This document shows positions 35,962 through 43,576 of a stretch of DNA of 64,000 bases, piece by piece. Below the pieces are notes generated by a model. The model had not been told where the DNA came from. It saw only the letters and a program-made list of their open reading frames with translations, and searched no databases. The DNA is from an uncultured Sphingomonadaceae bacterium (lineage in GTDB: Bacteria; Pseudomonadota; Alphaproteobacteria; Sphingomonadales; Sphingomonadaceae), in the NCBI GenBank assembly GCA_947497315.1, contig CANMFX010000002.1, positions 558,001 to 622,000 of the forward strand. The letters are read 5' to 3'. Numbering within the stretch: position 1 is the stretch's first letter; each line of letters starts with the position of its first letter. Made by a program: the position numbers and the translations under genes.

Positions 35962-35981
35962 TGATTACATATTTATGACAG
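35962..35981 (-). promoter_or_regulatory. Pho box of pstS
   Basis: On the minus strand CTGTCATAAATATGTAATCA is a strong match to the PhoB repeat pair (CTGTCAT, four-base AT spacer, ATGTAAT). It lies between the phoR stop and pstS, and gives pstSCAB-phoU-phoB its own phosphate-controlled promoter. Confidence 0.82.
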
Positions 35982-35991
35982 TTATATTACA

Positions 35992-37248
35992 TCAGATGTG
36001 TTGATGCTGTTGCTCTGGCTTGATGACCGGCAGGAATATTGCGACAGTTGTGCCGATGCCCTGTTCACTGGAAACCTCCATCCGGCCACCATGGCGTTCA
36101 GTGATATGCTTTACAATGGCCAGCCCTAACCCGGTTCCACCAATCGATTTGCTTCGTCCTTTGTCGACGCGGTAGAAACGTTCCGTTAGCCGCGGGATAT
36201 GTTCTGCGGCTATTCCATCGCCTTGATCCGTCACGGACAGGCGAAGCATCGAACCATTACGATTGGGTTTGACTGCAACTGATACAGGCGTACCCCGTCG
36301 TCCATATTTAATGGCATTGCTGACCAGATTATGAAGCAATTGGGATATCTGTGCGTGGTCGCCCTGGATCATCGGCAAGTTGTCCGGCAGAGAGAGAACA
36401 AAATTATCTTCATTTTTGCTACGACCGTTCAGAAAAACCGTTCTCACTTCTGCGACAAGCTTGGCCAGATCAACCGGCTCTGCGGGTAATTGGTATTTTT
36501 CCGCTTCTATGCGGGACAGCGACATCAGATCTTCGACCAATCGCTGCATGCGGTCGGCTTCTTGATACATGATTGTCAAAAAACGTGCACGTGTGTCTTC
36601 ATCTTTGCCTGCTTCAGGGTTCTCCAGTGTTTCGATAAAACCTTTTATGGCAGCCAATGGCGTACGTAGTTCGTGACTGGCATTGGCCACGAAATCAGTA
36701 CGCATACGTTCTGCGGCGTAGCGGCTGCTTTGGTCTGACAACTGAACCAGCTTTAGTCCGTCATCCAGTGCATGAATCCGTAATTCCCAACGCTGATCAG
36801 CACTGCCGACTCCGACTAATAAAATCGGTTCTCCGGTATGTTCGGCATTGGGATTAGCCAGGCGGTCGGCCGCTGCCGGATGACGAATCGCGACCCGCAC
36901 GTCCTCTCCGATAATATGATTACCTAGAAAGTTTTTCGCAGCCGGATTAGCCATCGCTACTTTGGCATTGCGGATAAGTAGAATCGGGTCGGTAATGGGA
37001 TCAACCACATCCTGGTAAGCTTCCGCCCTACCTTGGTATAGTAGCCGTTTTTTCTGTCGTTCCAGCGCGTTGAAATCTGGTGGCGGCGGTGCACGATCTT
37101 CCAAGGCAACAATGGCAAGGGCGACAATTCCAAATGCCGACATAATTATAATTTTCATCAGTGCCGCGGAAGTCTGAGCTGCCAGAACTGATCCCCCGAT
37201 TATCAAGAGAATCGCAAAAATCAGCCGAAATGGAGAAATTGTGTTCAT
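35992..37248 (-). CDS. phoR: Phosphate regulon sensor histidine kinase PhoR
   Basis: The 418-residue protein has two N-terminal helices (LIFAILLIIGGSVLA, IIIMSAFGIVALAIVAL), a PAS-like domain at about 80-175, the HisKA motif VANASHELRTPLAAIKG with His192, and an HATPase domain (NLVSNAIKYG, GDGIAAEHIPRLTERFYRVD, GGTGLGLAIVKHI). It phosphorylates PhoB when Pst flux is low. It heads the leftward phoR-pstSCAB-phoU-phoB set; no clear Pho box was found ahead of it. Confidence 0.96.
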   Translation of the reverse strand: MNTISPFRLIFAILLIIGGSVLAAQTSAALMKIIIMSAFGIVALAIVALEDRAPPPPDFNALERQKKRLLYQGRAEAYQDVVDPITDPILLIRNAKVAMANPAAKNFLGNHIIGEDVRVAIRHPAAADRLANPNAEHTGEPILLVGVGSADQRWELRIHALDDGLKLVQLSDQSSRYAAERMRTDFVANASHELRTPLAAIKGFIETLENPEAGKDEDTRARFLTIMYQEADRMQRLVEDLMSLSRIEAEKYQLPAEPVDLAKLVAEVRTVFLNGRSKNEDNFVLSLPDNLPMIQGDHAQISQLLHNLVSNAIKYGRRGTPVSVAVKPNRNGSMLRLSVTDQGDGIAAEHIPRLTERFYRVDKGRSKSIGGTGLGLAIVKHITERHGGRMEVSSEQGIGTTVAIFLPVIKPEQQHQHI

Positions 37249-37485: not shown

Positions 37486-37914
37486 ATGACCGACAATCCA
37501 AACCAGAATTTGGAAGCTGGAGAGCCCGAGGGCGCTTCTCAGGATGCTGCGATCGTAACACGCCGCCGCGCGCTGATGATGGGTGCTGTGACAGCTTCTG
37601 CAGTCGTCAGCATCAAGCCGGCTTTGGCGCAGACCGCTGGTTCCGTGCTAAACTGTGAAATTCCGGTTCCGGGCAATCACGCCGCTGGCGGTTATATTGG
37701 TCCGGACGGAAAAATTGTATCACCCGACACGCCGGGCGCATTTCCGCCCGCAGGCCGGAATTTTACTGGGGAAGAAGTGAAGCGGGCAATGAATGGCCGG
37801 TCTCTTCCAGGTACATCTTATGATCAGTCCAAAGCCTATGTGAACTATATCAGGCGGCTCCAGTCCGGGCAAAGCGGCTTTACCTGCTACGCATCTCTGC
37901 AAATGCCGCGATAG
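37486..37914 (+). CDS. Tat-signal protein of unknown function, candidate HPr-rel-A substrate
   Basis: The 142-residue protein has about 24 mostly acidic/polar residues (NLEAGEPEGASQDAAI) before a twin-arginine signal (TRRRALMMGAVTASAVVSI, cleavage expected near ALAQ at 46-49). The mature part has two cysteines, C57 and C134, Gly/Pro-rich loops and an Arg/Tyr helix (YVNYIRRLQSG), and ends CYASLQMPR. No enzyme motif is seen. The ATG is preceded by AGAGGAAAA at a long spacing. It lies 101 bases before the PqqD-like gene in the same direction. I infer, but cannot show, that it is the protein handled by the downstream kinase and nucleotidyltransferase. Confidence 0.75.
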   Translation: MTDNPNQNLEAGEPEGASQDAAIVTRRRALMMGAVTASAVVSIKPALAQTAGSVLNCEIPVPGNHAAGGYIGPDGKIVSPDTPGAFPPAGRNFTGEEVKRAMNGRSLPGTSYDQSKAYVNYIRRLQSGQSGFTCYASLQMPR

Positions 37915-38015
37915 CTTTGCACTGAATTTTGGCTTCAAAGCCAATGCTTATTAACATATTCATGCTATTGGCTTTTTCGAATGATTTGCCGTGATCAGGG
38001 ATAGTGTAACCGCCA

Positions 38016-38294
38016 ATGAGCCAGCTTTATCGTGCCGCAGCCTCTGAAGGGCTGATCCAGCATCCGCTGGACAGTATGACGCTGATTTTCCAGAAATCAT
38101 CGGGGATTACTCATGTGGTTGCCGACCTAGTACCCGCAATACTGACGGTTATGGGGGCAGACGCTCTGACGGCCGAGGATATCACAGGCAGACTATCCGA
38201 CAGCTATGATCTGGAGGACAGCGGAGACGCCGCCGATATTGTGCTGGCGAGGCTGGTCGAGCTGTCTTCGCTTGGCCTTGTTGAACAGGTCTAG
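38016..38294 (+). CDS. PqqD-like protein of the HPr-rel-A system
   Basis: The 92-residue protein has the winged-helix-like PqqD/RRE arrangement: a beta hairpin (LDSMTLIFQKSSGITHVV) and helices (ITGRLSDSYDL, IVLARLVELSSLGLVEQV). I recall NCBI models naming this group as the PqqD family peptide chaperone of the HPr-rel-A system. PqqD-type domains bind leader peptides for modification enzymes. It ends five bases before the kinase gene. Confidence 0.85.
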   Translation: MSQLYRAAASEGLIQHPLDSMTLIFQKSSGITHVVADLVPAILTVMGADALTAEDITGRLSDSYDLEDSGDAADIVLARLVELSSLGLVEQV

Positions 38295-38299
38295 GACCG

Positions 38300-39169
38300 G
38301 TGGCGCGCATGCATCAGCTCTATCTGACGGTTGGGCCGACGCGATTTCGGTTGGCGTCGACCTGGCGGCAGCCTCTCGATCAACTGGCAGCCCTCTACAA
38401 GGACTATCCAACGTCACAGGATGGCTACGCTGACTTCACTGTCCGGTTGGAGCCTGAAAAACCTTGGCGGCGCTATATTCGGCCTTCTGTTCATATTTCT
38501 GGTGATTTTTGGCTTCCTGATGCAGCTCCGCTGCCACTTGATCAAAGCCTGTTAGCTGCGGAAATGGGCATGAACTTGCAAATGGCACTGGGTTGGCGGC
38601 GGCATCTTTTGCTGCATGCCAGCAGTGTCGAAAAGGATGGCAAGGCACTGCTGATGACCGGCTTGTCTGGCTCGGGAAAGTCGACGTTATCCGCGATGCT
38701 CGCGGAAAAAGGCTGGCGATTCATGGGCGATGAATTTGCCTTGCTCAACCCGGATACTGGCATGGTTCATAGCTTCCCGCGACTGATCAGCCTCAAAAAC
38801 GAGGCCATTGCCGCGATGCGCGCGATTGTGCCGGAAAATCGGTTCGGTCCCCTGATGAAGGGGACACCCAAGGGGGATATCCGACACGTGATGCCGCCGC
38901 TGGATGCGGTCAACAAAATGAAGGATGTGGCCAAGCCCGCTTTGCTTCTGTTTCCGCGCTTTGGTCATGATCCTGCTCTGCGCGACATGGGCAAGAGCGA
39001 GATTTTTGTCCGGCTGACCCAGGCATCGACAAACTATGTGGCTCTTGGTGAGACCGGCTTTCGGGCCCTGACCCGATTTGTTGATACAGTCCCCACCAAA
39101 GCGATGGACTATCAGTCAGGTGATCAAGCCGAAGAGTTGATTGATAGCTTGTGGAGCAAGCTCCCATGA
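38300..39169 (+). CDS. HprK-related kinase A
   Basis: The 289-residue protein has an HPr kinase-like core: LLLHASSVEKDGKALLMTG, P-loop GLSGSGKST (121-129), FMGDEFALL with Asp144, and the PRLISLKNEA segment that I associate with the HPr-rel-A family. It lacks the long N-terminal domain of true HprK, and no HPr gene is adjacent. It probably phosphorylates a small protein or peptide. The GTG at 38300 lies after AGGACC; an ATG at 38309 is an alternative. Confidence 0.88.
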   Translation: MARMHQLYLTVGPTRFRLASTWRQPLDQLAALYKDYPTSQDGYADFTVRLEPEKPWRRYIRPSVHISGDFWLPDAAPLPLDQSLLAAEMGMNLQMALGWRRHLLLHASSVEKDGKALLMTGLSGSGKSTLSAMLAEKGWRFMGDEFALLNPDTGMVHSFPRLISLKNEAIAAMRAIVPENRFGPLMKGTPKGDIRHVMPPLDAVNKMKDVAKPALLLFPRFGHDPALRDMGKSEIFVRLTQASTNYVALGETGFRALTRFVDTVPTKAMDYQSGDQAEELIDSLWSKLP

Positions 39170-40185
39170 TGCGCGATGCTCGACCTTTGGTCGATGCCTT
39201 GCGCGACCCGGAGACGGTTCTGTCGCTTGATGGAGCCGGATGGACCAACCTGATCAGCATTGCCCGAGCAGAGTCGCTAATCGGCAGTTTGGCCCATCGA
39301 TTGACCGGCATGGCCGTGCCGGAGCAAGTCAGGCCCATTCTGAAAGATGCGATTCAAGCTACTGATCTTGCAAGACAACAAGCGCTTTGGGAGGCGGATT
39401 GCGCGCGCCGGGCTCTTGCGCCGCTAAATAGCAAGGTCGTGCTGATGAAAGGCACCGCCTATGTCGCGGCAGATCTTGATGCGGGGGTTGGTCGAAGCAT
39501 TGGTGATCTTGATATCATGGTCGCACAAGACTCGCTATCGGCTGTCGAAGAGGCGTTGCTGGATGCGGGTTGGGAATGGGTAAAGCCAGACCCTTATGAT
39601 GACCAATATTACCGCGAACATATGCATGAATTGCCGCCGCTCATCCATCGGGAGCGTGATCGAATGATCGATGTGCATCATACGACATTGCCGCAGACCG
39701 CACGACCAACTCCCGATCCGCAAGCAATGCTCGATGCGGCGGTCAAGCTGGATTCAGGTCTCTACGTAATGTCGCCTGCTGATATGTTGCTCCACTCCGT
39801 CGCTCATCTCTCTGCCGATGGCGATCTGACCGGAGGTTTGCGCAACCTATGGGATATCGACCGTTTGGTTCGGCAGTTTTCGGAAGCAGACGAGCAGTTT
39901 TGGATCGTATTAGGCGTCCGGGCTAGGCTGCATCATCTGGAGCCGCATCTAGCACGGGCATTGCGCCTAGCTTTCCGCCTCTATGATACTCCGGTCTATA
40001 AATATCGCGCGGGCCAAACCAAGTTCACGGATTATCTCTATATTAGAAGGCTATTGGCCCGTGATGGCTGGGGAAGGAAAACTCGAAAGTTCACACGCCA
40101 GGCCTTCTATATTCGCTCTCATTGGCTCAGGATGCCGCCGTTGATGCTGGCTCGTCATTTGTGGGCCAAGTGGCGCAAGGGCTGA
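39166..40185 (+). CDS. Nucleotidyltransferase family protein (NTP_transf_5-like)
   Basis: The 339-residue protein has the nucleotidyltransferase signature LMKGTAY (93-99) and GDLDIMV (113-119, Asp114 and Asp116), then DVHHTTLP and a helical C-terminal half. It belongs to the family found next to HprK-like kinases in peptide-tailoring clusters. The ATG at 39166 overlaps the kinase stop by four bases (ATGA) and follows GGAG. A GTG at 39151 is less likely. It would transfer a nucleotide to a protein, peptide or small molecule; the acceptor is unknown. It is the last gene of the cassette. Confidence 0.85.
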   Translation: MMRDARPLVDALRDPETVLSLDGAGWTNLISIARAESLIGSLAHRLTGMAVPEQVRPILKDAIQATDLARQQALWEADCARRALAPLNSKVVLMKGTAYVAADLDAGVGRSIGDLDIMVAQDSLSAVEEALLDAGWEWVKPDPYDDQYYREHMHELPPLIHRERDRMIDVHHTTLPQTARPTPDPQAMLDAAVKLDSGLYVMSPADMLLHSVAHLSADGDLTGGLRNLWDIDRLVRQFSEADEQFWIVLGVRARLHHLEPHLARALRLAFRLYDTPVYKYRAGQTKFTDYLYIRRLLARDGWGRKTRKFTRQAFYIRSHWLRMPPLMLARHLWAKWRKG

Positions 40186-40188
40186 CGG

Positions 40189-40875
40189 TTAGCGGCTCAA
40201 TGTGGCCAAGGTCGGCACAAGCTCGTCATAATGATCGATAATCGCATCGGCGCCCAGTTCTTCAACGGGCTGATGTAAAAAGCCGAAACTGACCGCGACA
40301 TTGGCGATACCGGCATTTTGGGCCGCTTTAATGTCGAATATACTGTCACCAATGAACGCGGCCGGTGTTTGATCTACCACCCCGTCACAACGCCGGATCA
40401 TTTCGTCAATCGGATCGCGCTCGGGCTTGCTGCGCCCTTTGCCCATCGTATCACCGCCGATGACGGTGACAAACCGGTCAATCATTCCGACATTGGTCAG
40501 CAGTTTAACCGCGAGGCTTTCAAATTTGTTGGTCACTACCGCCAGTTTGATGCCTTGATCTTGCATTGCATCCATGGCATCGGTCAGTCCCGCAAAAGCC
40601 GGCGCATTATTACCCAGATTGGCTTCATAATGATCGATCAGGATGGGCAGCAGGCTTTTGACCAGATCCTTGTCGCTGCCACCGGACTGTTCTAGTGCCA
40701 TTTCCAGCATATGCCTTGCGCCCATGCCGACCAAAGATCGGATGGATTGTTCGTCCACTTGCGGCCGATCTGCGCTAGCCAGCGCGTGATTGAGCGAAGC
40801 GGCGAGTTCCATGCTGGTGTCGAGCAAGGTGCCGTCCAGATCAAAGCCAATGATATCGAAAGAAATTTCTGTCAT
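40189..40875 (-). CDS. gph: Phosphoglycolate phosphatase-like HAD hydrolase
   Basis: The 228-residue HAD protein has GFDLDGTLLDTS, a helical cap domain, VVTNKFESLAVKLL and the acidic AAFIGDSIFDIKAAQNAG. The length and place next to glmU are typical of sphingomonad Gph, which removes 2-phosphoglycolate made during DNA repair. It is convergent with the HPr-rel-A cassette (three-base gap) and divergent from glmU. Specificity is inferred from family. Confidence 0.85.
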   Translation of the reverse strand: MTEISFDIIGFDLDGTLLDTSMELAASLNHALASADRPQVDEQSIRSLVGMGARHMLEMALEQSGGSDKDLVKSLLPILIDHYEANLGNNAPAFAGLTDAMDAMQDQGIKLAVVTNKFESLAVKLLTNVGMIDRFVTVIGGDTMGKGRSKPERDPIDEMIRRCDGVVDQTPAAFIGDSIFDIKAAQNAGIANVAVSFGFLHQPVEELGADAIIDHYDELVPTLATLSR

Positions 40876-40972
40876 AAGCTCTGCATAGAACCGATCTTGC
40901 TGGCATAAGCAACCGCATCATGGCATGGGGCGCGAATTCAGCGTTTGGAACAGGATATTCGGAGTTTTTGGC

Positions 40973-42322
40973 ATGAGTGACCGTCCTTTAGCAGCCATTA
41001 TATTAGCCGCCGGACAAGGTACGCGGATGAAATCGGAGACGCACAAGGTCCTGCATCCGATTGCCGGGAAGCCAATGCTCCATCATCTGCTCGATACGGT
41101 TGATTCTATCGGTGTAGAACGCACGGTCGTGGTCGTCGGTGCGCGGCGCGAGCAGATCGAGGCGAGCGTTGAAGATCGTAATGTCGCGATAGCCGTGCAG
41201 GAAGATCAGTTGGGTACCGGCCACGCGGTCGCGCAGGCGCATGAGGCACTGAAAGGTTTCGCTGGCGATGTGCTCATCCTTTACGGCGATGTGCCCATGG
41301 TAAGTGCTGAGACCATGCACGCGATGATTGCGCGGCTGAATGACGGCACGGATCCGCGCGCAGTCGTGCTCGGTTTTCGTCCCGAAGATGCAGGCGCCTA
41401 TGGCCGGATCATTGCCAGCGATCAGGGCGAGATCGAAAAAATGGTCGAATATAAGGATGCCGACGACGCCGAACGTGCGGTCAACCTGTGCAACAGCGGG
41501 TTGATGGCGGCGCGAGCGACCGATTTGTTCATCCTGCTCGATCAAATCGGCAATGATAATGCGGCGGGCGAATATTATCTGCCGGATATCGTGATGCTGC
41601 CGGGCCAGGCCAGTGCGGTCATTGAGGTGGATGATCCTGCCGAGGTTGCGGGCGTTAACAGCCGCGCCGAACTGGCCGCCGTCGAGGGAGAGTGGCAGCA
41701 ACGTCGGCGGGCGCAGGCGATGGCAGACGGTGTCAGCCTAATTGCACCAGAAACCGTTTGGTTTTCGCATGATACAATACTCTCTTCAGATATTGTAATA
41801 GAACCGAATGTCTTTTTTGGACCCGGCGTCACGGTAGCCAGCGGTGCACGAATCTATGGCCATAGTCATATCGAAGGCGCGTCCATTGGTGCGAATACTA
41901 ATGTCGGTCCGTTCGCAAGACTGCGGCCAGGCGCGGTGCTTGAGGAAGGTTCAAAAATCGGCAATTTTGTCGAGATGAAAAAAGCGGTGCTGGGCAAAGG
42001 TGCCAAGGCTAATCATCTGACCTATCTGGGCGATGCCGAAGTGGGCGAGGGCGCCAATATCGGCGCGGGCACGATTACCTGCAATTATGACGGCTATTTC
42101 AAATATAAAACGAAGATCGGCAAAGGCGCCTTCATCGGCAGCAACAGCGCATTGGTGGCGCCGGTGACAATTGGCGACGGGGCGATTGTCGGCGCTGGCG
42201 CGGTGCTGACCAAGGATGTCGATGCCGGCGATCTGGCGCTAGTGCGGGCCGAACAGACCGCGAAAAAGGGCTGGGCGGACCGGTTTAACGCGGTGAACGC
42301 GAAGAAGAAGGCGGGGAAGTGA
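40973..42322 (+). CDS. glmU: Bifunctional UDP-GlcNAc pyrophosphorylase/GlcN-1-P acetyltransferase
   Basis: The 449-residue protein has the N-terminal uridyltransferase (ILAAGQGTRMKSETHKVLHPIAGKPM, ILYGDVPMV) and C-terminal left-handed beta helix (IEGASIGANTNVGPFARLRPGAVL, LTYLGDAEVGEGANIGAGTITCNYDG). It makes UDP-GlcNAc for peptidoglycan and lipopolysaccharide. GGAG eight bases before the ATG at 40973 fixes the start. Its partner glmS lies 1.3 kb downstream, separated by three accessory genes. Confidence 0.97.
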   Translation: MSDRPLAAIILAAGQGTRMKSETHKVLHPIAGKPMLHHLLDTVDSIGVERTVVVVGARREQIEASVEDRNVAIAVQEDQLGTGHAVAQAHEALKGFAGDVLILYGDVPMVSAETMHAMIARLNDGTDPRAVVLGFRPEDAGAYGRIIASDQGEIEKMVEYKDADDAERAVNLCNSGLMAARATDLFILLDQIGNDNAAGEYYLPDIVMLPGQASAVIEVDDPAEVAGVNSRAELAAVEGEWQQRRRAQAMADGVSLIAPETVWFSHDTILSSDIVIEPNVFFGPGVTVASGARIYGHSHIEGASIGANTNVGPFARLRPGAVLEEGSKIGNFVEMKKAVLGKGAKANHLTYLGDAEVGEGANIGAGTITCNYDGYFKYKTKIGKGAFIGSNSALVAPVTIGDGAIVGAGAVLTKDVDAGDLALVRAEQTAKKGWADRFNAVNAKKKAGK

Positions 42323-42848: not shown

Positions 42849-42880
42849 CATGATATCATGATATGATATCAATATATCAT
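42845..42880 (+). promoter_or_regulatory. Promoter and operator of the toxin-antitoxin pair
   Basis: A perfect -35 TTGACA at 42845-42850 is followed at 16 bases by TATCAA (42867-42872). Two copies of the palindrome TGATATCA (42851-42858 and 42864-42871), five bases apart, cover the spacer, as expected for a ribbon-helix-helix repressor site. The predicted transcription start falls at or near the antitoxin ATG. Confidence 0.7.
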
Positions 42881-43211
42881 GACTCGTATACTTGCCGACC
42901 TATCAGAAGAAGATGTTCAGTGGCTCGACGCACAGGCGGCGGCGCAGGGGACATCGCGGGCGCAGTTGCTGCGTGACGCGGTAGCGGCGTTTCGGGCGGA
43001 TGCGTCGAAGCAGGGGATTGAGAAATATTTCGGTATGTGGCGTGAACGCCGGGAAGTGGGTGACCCGGTAGCATGGCAGCGGCGCGAGCGCGCGTCTTGG
43101 ACACGGCCCTGGGATCCTGATTACTGGGACGTGCGCAAGGAATTCCCTGATCTTTTCGACGCTGATGATGACCGTGAGGCCGAACGCTATCGCAAGAAGG
43201 ATGCCTCGTGA
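42879..43211 (+). CDS. Ribbon-helix-helix antitoxin of a VapBC-type pair
   Basis: The 110-residue protein has an N-terminal RHH domain (RILADLSEEDVQWLDAQAAAQ, SRAQLLRDAVAAFRAD) and a Trp/Arg/Asp-rich C-terminus (ERASWTRPWDPDYWD, DADDDREAERYRKK) that would wrap and inhibit the toxin. No ribosome binding site precedes the ATG, consistent with leaderless translation. The stop overlaps the toxin GTG by four bases. It should repress its own promoter through the TGATATCA repeats. Confidence 0.88.
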   Translation: MTRILADLSEEDVQWLDAQAAAQGTSRAQLLRDAVAAFRADASKQGIEKYFGMWRERREVGDPVAWQRRERASWTRPWDPDYWDVRKEFPDLFDADDDREAERYRKKDAS

Positions 43212-43576
43212 ACGAAGCGGTGTTCGACAGTAACATCCTATTCGATGCGCTTAACGACGTTGGCCGCGCCAATGTTGAACTGCAACGCTATGACCGCCGT
43301 TATATCAGCCGGCTGACCTGGGTTGAAGTGCTGACCCGGGCGCTGCCGGACGATGGCGACCGGGCGGAAGCCTTTCTCTCCTTTTTCAATGTCATTGAGG
43401 TGAATGAAGAAATCGGTCGGCGGGCAGCCTTGCTACGTAGTGACCGGCGGCGGCTGAAAGCCATGGACGCCGTCATTCTCGCCTCGGCCCAACTCACCGG
43501 GCGAATCTTGATCACCCGAAACACGCGCGATTTTCCGGCGGAAATGCCAGGCATTCGCGTTCCATATACTCTCTAA
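43208..43576 (+). CDS. PIN domain toxin (VapC-like ribonuclease)
   Basis: The 122-residue PIN protein has the acidic residues D7 (FDSNI), E40 (TWVEV), D87 (AMDAV) and D108 (TRDF), all expected for a metal-dependent VapC RNase. GTG start overlaps the antitoxin stop (GTGA). It is probably translated by coupling. The pair lies between glmU and glmS, two genes that are often adjacent, so it looks like an accessory insertion. The RNA target is unknown. Confidence 0.9.
   Translation: MNEAVFDSNILFDALNDVGRANVELQRYDRRYISRLTWVEVLTRALPDDGDRAEAFLSFFNVIEVNEEIGRRAALLRSDRRRLKAMDAVILASAQLTGRILITRNTRDFPAEMPGIRVPYTL

Follow-up and report, generated by a model that had tools for sequence, protein, structure and literature searches.

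The 64,000-nucleotide stretch analyzed here, taken from contig CANMFX010000002.1 of an uncultured Sphingomonadaceae bacterium (hereafter the window, to whose full length all positions refer), contains four genes that run in the same direction and encode, in order, a protein with a twin-arginine translocation (Tat) signal, hereafter the Tat protein, a PqqD-like protein, an HprK-like kinase and a nucleotidyltransferase (NT). The open reading frames (ORFs) called in a preliminary description of this DNA were rechecked against the sequence, and all four lie where it had placed them (Table 1). The tight spacing that it described was also found: 5 nt separate the PqqD and kinase genes, and the kinase and NT genes overlap by 4 nt, while the gap between the Tat and PqqD genes is 101 nt. 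The mechanically called ORF of the NT begins earlier, at a GTG at 39151. The proposed family identities were borne out by profile searches, in which TIGR04353, TIGR04352 and PF14907 all scored over their cut-offs, and both the P-loop of the kinase (GLSGSGKST) and the GDLD motif of the NT are intact. In the same searches no Pfam or NCBIfam family matched the Tat protein, whose gene is present as a single copy in this genome.

Table 1. The four-gene cassette, features of the Tat protein and flanking genes, in positions of the window.
Feature	Position	Strand	Remarks
Tat-signal protein gene	37486..37914	+	142 aa; proposed substrate of the cassette enzymes
Tat signal, codons 1-48	37486..37629	+	n-region, twin-arginine TRRRALMMG, hydrophobic stretch, ALA cleavage-like site; read by eye
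Cys57 codon	37654..37656	+	first Cys of the mature protein; invariant in 68 family sequences
C-terminal [ST]CxxS motif, codons T133-C134-Y135-A136-S137	37882..37896	+	Ser137 is the proposed phosphorylation site
PqqD_rel_X gene	38016..38294	+	92 aa; RRE-like peptide chaperone; TIGR04353 47.8 bits, cut-off 35
HprK-related kinase A (HprK_rel_A) gene	38300..39169	+	289 aa; TIGR04352 246.5 bits, cut-off 200
NT gene	39166..40185	+	339 aa from ATG 39166; PF14907 163 bits, cut-off 31.2
phoR-like histidine kinase gene	35992..37248	-	divergent flank, not proposed as part of the cassette; phoR_proteo 299.7 bits, below cut-off 334.2
HAD phosphatase gene, phosphoglycolate-phosphatase-like	40189..40875	-	flank; 159.4 bits, below cut-off 225
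glmU	40925..42322	+	flank; named from position and an annotated homologue

The four-gene set is more than a chance association, because its gene order is found all through the sampled Sphingomonadales and also outside them. Among 60 relatives, 45 have HprK_rel_A over its cut-off, and every one of the 31 further genomes of the genus is among them; across the order, 120 of 297 genomes match at E <= 1e-15, and in 118 of these the score exceeds the cut-off. The arrangement phoR / Tat > PqqD > kinase > NT / HAD, glmU is kept across families. From 104 order loci listed, the 60 best-scoring were opened, together with ten more genomes; of 98 order loci examined, each from a distinct genome, 97 have a Tat gene upstream of the kinase. 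Of these 97, 94 were called by script as a Tat ORF with [ST]C..S and three were added by inspection: L119, cut at a contig edge, and L120, missed by the filter, carry the motif, and L021 ends at a stop before it. The NT is present in all 98 loci, a divergent phoR-like gene lies upstream in 91, and glmU is reached in 73, some stretches being too short to reach it. PqqD_rel_X was recognized in 10/10 ORFs at the PqqD position (seven over the cut-off). Among named genome records, which were the closest 80 relatives of more than 580 and not a spread sample, 79 have the Tat gene upstream and the 80th (L230) starts at a contig end, so that all 79 named loci with upstream sequence carry it. Two loci (L034 and L130) have two tandem Tat genes per single enzyme set, and a plasmid of Sphingomonas parapaucimobilis holds the complete sphingomonad arrangement. 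A record titled Bacillus sp. 2B10 (L296, RPSH01000014.1) also contains a sphingomonad cassette, with 61% kinase identity and the usual neighbours, and is probably mislabelled or a mixed assembly.

A profile was built from family-level Tat proteins (alignment A2) and run over the same 297 order genomes. The profile matched 83 of the 120 kinase-positive genomes and none of the 177 kinase-negative genomes (Fisher p ~9e-45, uncorrected for descent); within the window's family it matched 74 of 74 kinase-positive genomes. The preliminary description had named a Tat protein found mostly without the kinase as evidence against a system, and the distribution observed favours one. All 37 kinase-positive genomes without a match come from other families, in which the Tat protein has diverged too far for the profile to recognize it; in those that were opened, a Tat gene is present. 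Genus g35 provides a comparison at close range, with three genomes that have both genes and one (G112) that has neither. Nine profile matches were weak, above E 1e-10, and the weak matches in G064 and G085 are distant from the kinase in genomes where the cassette Tat gene is present too. In 14 genomes the Tat match is unlinked from the kinase, 88-685 kb away or on another contig, a count that excludes G187 (4.4 kb), G274 (split by a contig end) and the weak matches of G064 and G085. Ten of the unlinked genomes were opened, and these revealed two different breakpoints. In nine, all of genus g31, the Tat gene has stayed beside phoR and the PqqD-kinase-NT genes beside HAD-glmU; in G083 the break falls after PqqD, so that Tat and PqqD are with phoR and kinase-NT elsewhere, and the Tat protein ends GLSCLNSFF. 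Since all four genes are kept across two different breaks, these genomes argue that the four work together, although a single event may account for all nine g31 genomes.

The same rearrangements bear on the neighbouring phosphate genes. Because the divergent phoR adjoins the cassette in 91 of 98 order loci, with pst genes beyond, the set could be a signalling module of the phosphate regulon, in which an HPr-kinase-like enzyme stands under adjacent phoR/pst control. We regard this as very improbable, given that PqqD-kinase-NT moved away from phoR in the nine opened genomes, that other classes lack phoR at the cassette, and that no Pho-box-like match lies between phoR and the Tat gene. The Pho regulon was rejected as the main explanation: the whole window holds 21 Pho-box matches with at most three mismatches, compared with 12.8 expected, and none falls in the phoR-Tat interval. 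Two overlapping Pho-box-like matches with two mismatches each were seen at 35964-35992 (-), ahead of a pstS-like gene.

The Tat protein has the hallmarks of a Tat substrate, namely the twin-arginine motif, hydrophobic stretch and AxA site (identified by eye and by regular expression), and is predicted to be exported. In 11 order-wide sequences only R27, L30, G33, C134 and S137 are common to all (alignment A1); since the A1 sequences were drawn from ORFs picked for C..[ST] near the end, the invariance of the Cys is partly by construction, but that of the Ser is not. In alignment A4, whose 68 family sequences were chosen on similarity alone with the motif unused, R27, L30, G33, P45, A46, A48, C57, C134 and S137 are invariant, and C134 and S137 are also invariant in the family-level alignment A2. 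Outside the protein's own family the mature region is only 18-35% identical to that of the window protein, yet the C and S are invariant. Across families the mature proteins have diverged beyond recognition apart from a Cys shortly after the signal and the C-terminal [ST]CxxS. The first Cys lies 29-37 residues past the twin Arg in 21 of 22 printed Tat sequences, and the motif Ser lies 5 residues from the C-terminal end in the window protein and up to 49 elsewhere. Between the two Cys, the proteins are highly variable in length and sequence and include Asp-, Ser- and Asn/Gly-rich inserts. Long low-complexity inserts rich in Asp, His or Ser were seen there in L044 (8827-9546), L076 (3975-4562) and the Tat ORF of L040. 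A Tat-like signal together with [ST]C..S within the final 60 residues occurred in 18 of 255 ORFs of 90-420 aa in 20 order loci and in 4 of 224 ORFs in 20 loci of other classes, all of them cassette Tat ORFs, in a count whose greedy ORF choice dropped some cassette ORFs. An AlphaFold2 (AF2) model of the Tat protein had a mean predicted local distance difference test score (pLDDT) of 63.5 and no Foldseek match below E 3.2, and because of this poor model and the lack of a match we conclude nothing about its fold.

Sequence conservation was also evaluated for the enzymes. In 38 kinases the P-loop (GxGKST, K127), H106, D144, E145, K166, K191 and G192 are invariant, and the features expected of an HprK-like Ser kinase (Walker A, catalytic His and acidic residue) are present in the window's kinase. 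In 43 NTs the metal-site Asp pattern D114xD116 and D169 is invariant. The AF2 model of the NT (pLDDT 90.7) has a pol-beta-type nucleotidyltransferase (NTase) fold, and Foldseek matched it to MenT1 (E 2.4e-4, TM 0.67 by target length) and to ANT(2'')-Ia (E 1.7e-3), NTases with which it has the DxD...D pattern in common; identity to either is at most 17%, and the NT is larger, with extra helices. Given the invariant catalytic residues and the match of the NT fold to pol-beta-type NTases, both enzymes look active. Relative to HPr kinase/phosphorylase (HprK), the cassette kinase shares the P-loop region and, by sequence, the fold family (TIGR00679 19.7 bits; 1jb1 E 0.45), but its TIGR00679 score is far below the cut-off of 240 bits and the cassette has no HPr partner. 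Searches of the PDB by sequence returned no close relative of the kinase, the NT or the Tat protein; we consider a match of the PqqD-like protein to a chain of ATP synthase (E 0.0044) to be spurious.

The PqqD, kinase and NT genes correspond to the curated HPr-rel-A system, both of whose models, TIGR04352 and TIGR04353, pass here with the three genes adjacent. A PF14907 NT beside the kinase is typical of this system, and the window's Tat protein is covered by none of its models. We know of no tested function for HPr-rel-A, and a search of the CC-licensed PMC literature, which leaves subscription papers outside its coverage, found no study of HPr-rel-A or HprK-related kinase A.

The closest precedents come from the tailoring of lasso peptides. 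In the biosynthesis of pseudomycoidin, the C-terminal Ser is phosphorylated by PsmK, and a hexose on that phosphate requires the 'nucleotidyltransferase' PsmN (PMC9266682, PMC8498205). The HPr-like kinase of the bsf cluster, BsfK, phosphorylates an internal Ser, with a strong boost from BsfB1, an RRE (recognition element of ribosomally synthesized and post-translationally modified peptides, RiPPs), the NT there being untested (PMC10368454). An HPr kinase, PqqD and NT are common additions to ruminal lasso clusters (PMC7533575). The tailoring sets PsmK/PsmN, PadeK/ThcoK/SyanK and BsfB1/BsfK/BsfN share with the cassette an RRE, an HprK-like kinase and a 'nucleotidyltransferase', the kinase acting on Ser and the RRE boosting the kinase (PMC9266682, PMC8498205, PMC7533575, PMC10368454). 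In contrast to lasso biosynthesis, the cassette has neither an Asn-synthetase-like macrolactam cyclase nor a B2 leader peptidase, as judged from the ORF list between phoR and glmU, the window as a whole not having been searched with cyclase profiles. A lasso precursor is short, with a leader and core, whereas the only conserved candidate client of the cassette is the Tat protein, of 142 aa here and 140-270 aa overall. By analogy, the cassette looks like the tailoring section of a lasso cluster that lacks the cyclase and B2 protease and has the Tat protein as its client. The preliminary description had proposed a dedicated system of phosphorylation and nucleotidylation. Conservation and co-occurrence uphold the part of this claim that groups the Tat gene with those for PqqD, kinase and NT. 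Nucleotidylation is no more than one of the options; the nearest precedent, PsmN, gives a hexose on phosphoserine. Lanthionine-type chemistry, in which the kinase would phosphorylate Ser and the Cys would add, was considered because of the CxxS and kept as a remote idea only, the cassette being without a lyase or cyclase gene.

The window's genus also has separate lasso-type loci with their own kinases, and for three HprK-like kinases there the best NCBIfam match is TIGR04352 at 38-47 bits, far below the cut-off. Two such lasso-peptide-like loci in a genome of the same genus (L297, 4991-13441; L298, 9281-14673) encode cyclase-like proteins below cut-off and HprK-like kinases; L298 has a lasso PqqD over cut-off, and an 80-aa ORF in L297 has a Ser as its last residue, as phosphorylated lasso precursors do. 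As judged from the ORF list, no PF14907 relative stood out in these loci.

Beyond the order, HprK_rel_A matched 59 of 348 genomes in a phylum-wide sample, 47 of them over the cut-off. None of the latter came from the same class outside Sphingomonadales. Of the 33 over-cut-off genomes outside Sphingomonadales, 20 were opened, and 19 of these 20 loci have a Tat-like ORF upstream of the kinase; PqqD_rel_X was recognized in 9/11 tested ORFs at the PqqD position. The Tat proteins end in [ST]C..S in 9 of 19 loci, mostly as SCWxS. Five of the ten without this motif (L165, L166, L172, L179 and L180) have, as read from the sequences, a CxxS-like C[ST]xSG near the mature N-terminus. By eye, [SHT][PH]G[WYFN] was seen after the first Cys in L165, L166, L176, L179, L180, L181 and L182 (for example SPGWWGQ, SPGYWHN, SPGNWKN, SHGYWKN and TPGFFKN). 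Vibrio plasmids carry the same gene order, and that of Vibrio alfacsensis encodes a Tat protein, an 84-aa ORF at the PqqD position that TIGR04353 does not recognize, a kinase (323.9 bits) and an NT. A kinase clustering with a different conserved substrate had been named in the preliminary description as evidence against its proposal, and here the outcome is mixed: Tat neighbours outside the class differ in sequence, and the C-terminal motif is common to only 9 of 19.

The surroundings of these loci suggest another possibility, that the kinase and NT build or modify another molecule, such as a surface polysaccharide, lipid or cofactor, with the Tat protein as an exported carrier or downstream partner. 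XrtA/PEP-CTERM polysaccharide genes surround the set in the three loci outside the class that were tested (two glycosyltransferases and an amidotransferase in L164, PrsK in L180, PrsT in L166), the cassette sits beside glmU in the window, and some pol-beta-fold enzymes, ANT(2'')-Ia among them, can use small molecules as substrates. We nevertheless find this distinctly unlikely. An RRE-like protein implies, from what is known of the family, a peptide or protein client, the comparable lasso kinases modify peptides, and neighbourhoods vary by lineage while the Tat gene persists. The Vibrio alfacsensis plasmid cassette adjoins phosphonate-uptake genes, not XrtA genes.

Taken with the conservation and co-inheritance above, we consider it reasonably likely that the four genes form a self-contained modification and export cassette, in which the RRE, kinase and NT would modify the Tat protein before its export. 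The Tat protein is, on this evidence, the probable substrate of the enzymes. Several observations weigh against this interpretation. The co-occurrence test lacks phylogenetic independence, and no more than 13 candidates per genome were scored in the profile search. The kinase in L074, a locus of genome G083, has no Tat gene alongside, the Tat and PqqD genes being elsewhere in G083, and in L173, of another class, the kinase has no Tat neighbour and neither PqqD nor NT was seen nearby. The n-region is poorly conserved among the 68 family Tat sequences, so that no obvious leader motif for the RRE is apparent. The likeness of the NT to PsmN and BsfN is one of annotation as 'nucleotidyltransferase' only, and serves as a lead. 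Since 10 of 19 other-class Tat proteins lack the C-terminal motif, [ST]CxxS cannot be a universal modification site, and the CxxS could be structural. This last point leads to a variant in which the Tat protein is still the substrate but is modified at a different residue, in the signal region or at another Ser, and the CxxS forms a structural disulfide unit with the first Cys. Each Tat protein has two conserved Cys, and the ten motif-less proteins, five of them with C[ST]xSG instead, fit such a variant. We think it unlikely, as the Ser is invariant along with the Cys in 68 sequences, at the required spacing, and the HprK-like kinases of the lasso precedent have Ser as their target (PMC9266682, PMC10368454).

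Other functions were screened and set aside. A stem-loop folds in the 101-nt gap between the Tat and PqqD genes, but an attenuator was rejected because a terminator scan gave 2 sites versus 3.3 in shuffles and the gap is not conserved in relatives. Anti-phage defence was rejected in the absence of a PADLOC match of weight (best E 0.0067, to the P-loop only). Between phoR and glmU the ORF list contains the four cassette genes and the HAD phosphatase only, and the pst genes lie further out past phoR. Farther downstream, at 42879-43576 (+), a toxin-antitoxin-like pair, a ribbon-helix-helix protein (PF01402, slightly below cut-off) and a PIN-domain protein (PF01850, 50.3 bits), sits between a GNAT acetyltransferase gene and a glmS-like gene.

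For a cassette that modifies the Tat protein, we propose the following sequence of events. The Tat preprotein would be made in the cytoplasm, where the PqqD-like RRE would bind its signal or leader region and present it to HprK_rel_A. The kinase would then phosphorylate, from ATP, the invariant Ser of the C-terminal [ST]CxxS (Ser137), and the PF14907 NT may take this Ser phosphate as acceptor and add a nucleotide or a sugar(-phosphate). The Tat machinery would export the modified, possibly folded protein, whose two conserved Cys could pair outside. The set most likely attaches a phosphate, and perhaps also a sugar or nucleotide, to one exported protein. More tentatively, and with some doubt, the cassette may exemplify a protein-scale form of RiPP tailoring widespread in Proteobacteria, in which an RRE-guided HprK-like kinase and a PF14907 transferase would place a phosphoserine-linked nucleotide or sugar on Tat-exported proteins with hypervariable mature parts. 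These clients would form at least two classes, marked by [ST]CxxS at the C-terminus or C[ST]xSG at the N-terminus, and the Tat pore would bring the cytoplasmic modification out to the cell surface; the loci concerned are adjacent to Pho genes in sphingomonads and to exosortase/PEP-CTERM genes elsewhere.

The HPr-rel-A enzymes have so far been curated names without a substrate, and they now have a strong candidate for their client. If the Tat protein is that client, the system can be tested with one small protein, one candidate Ser and three enzymes, through easily measured mass shifts. RRE-guided Ser phosphorylation would then extend from lasso peptides to exported proteins, PF14907 enzymes would gain a protein acceptor, and a cytoplasmic modification passed through Tat would represent an unusual way to decorate surface proteins.

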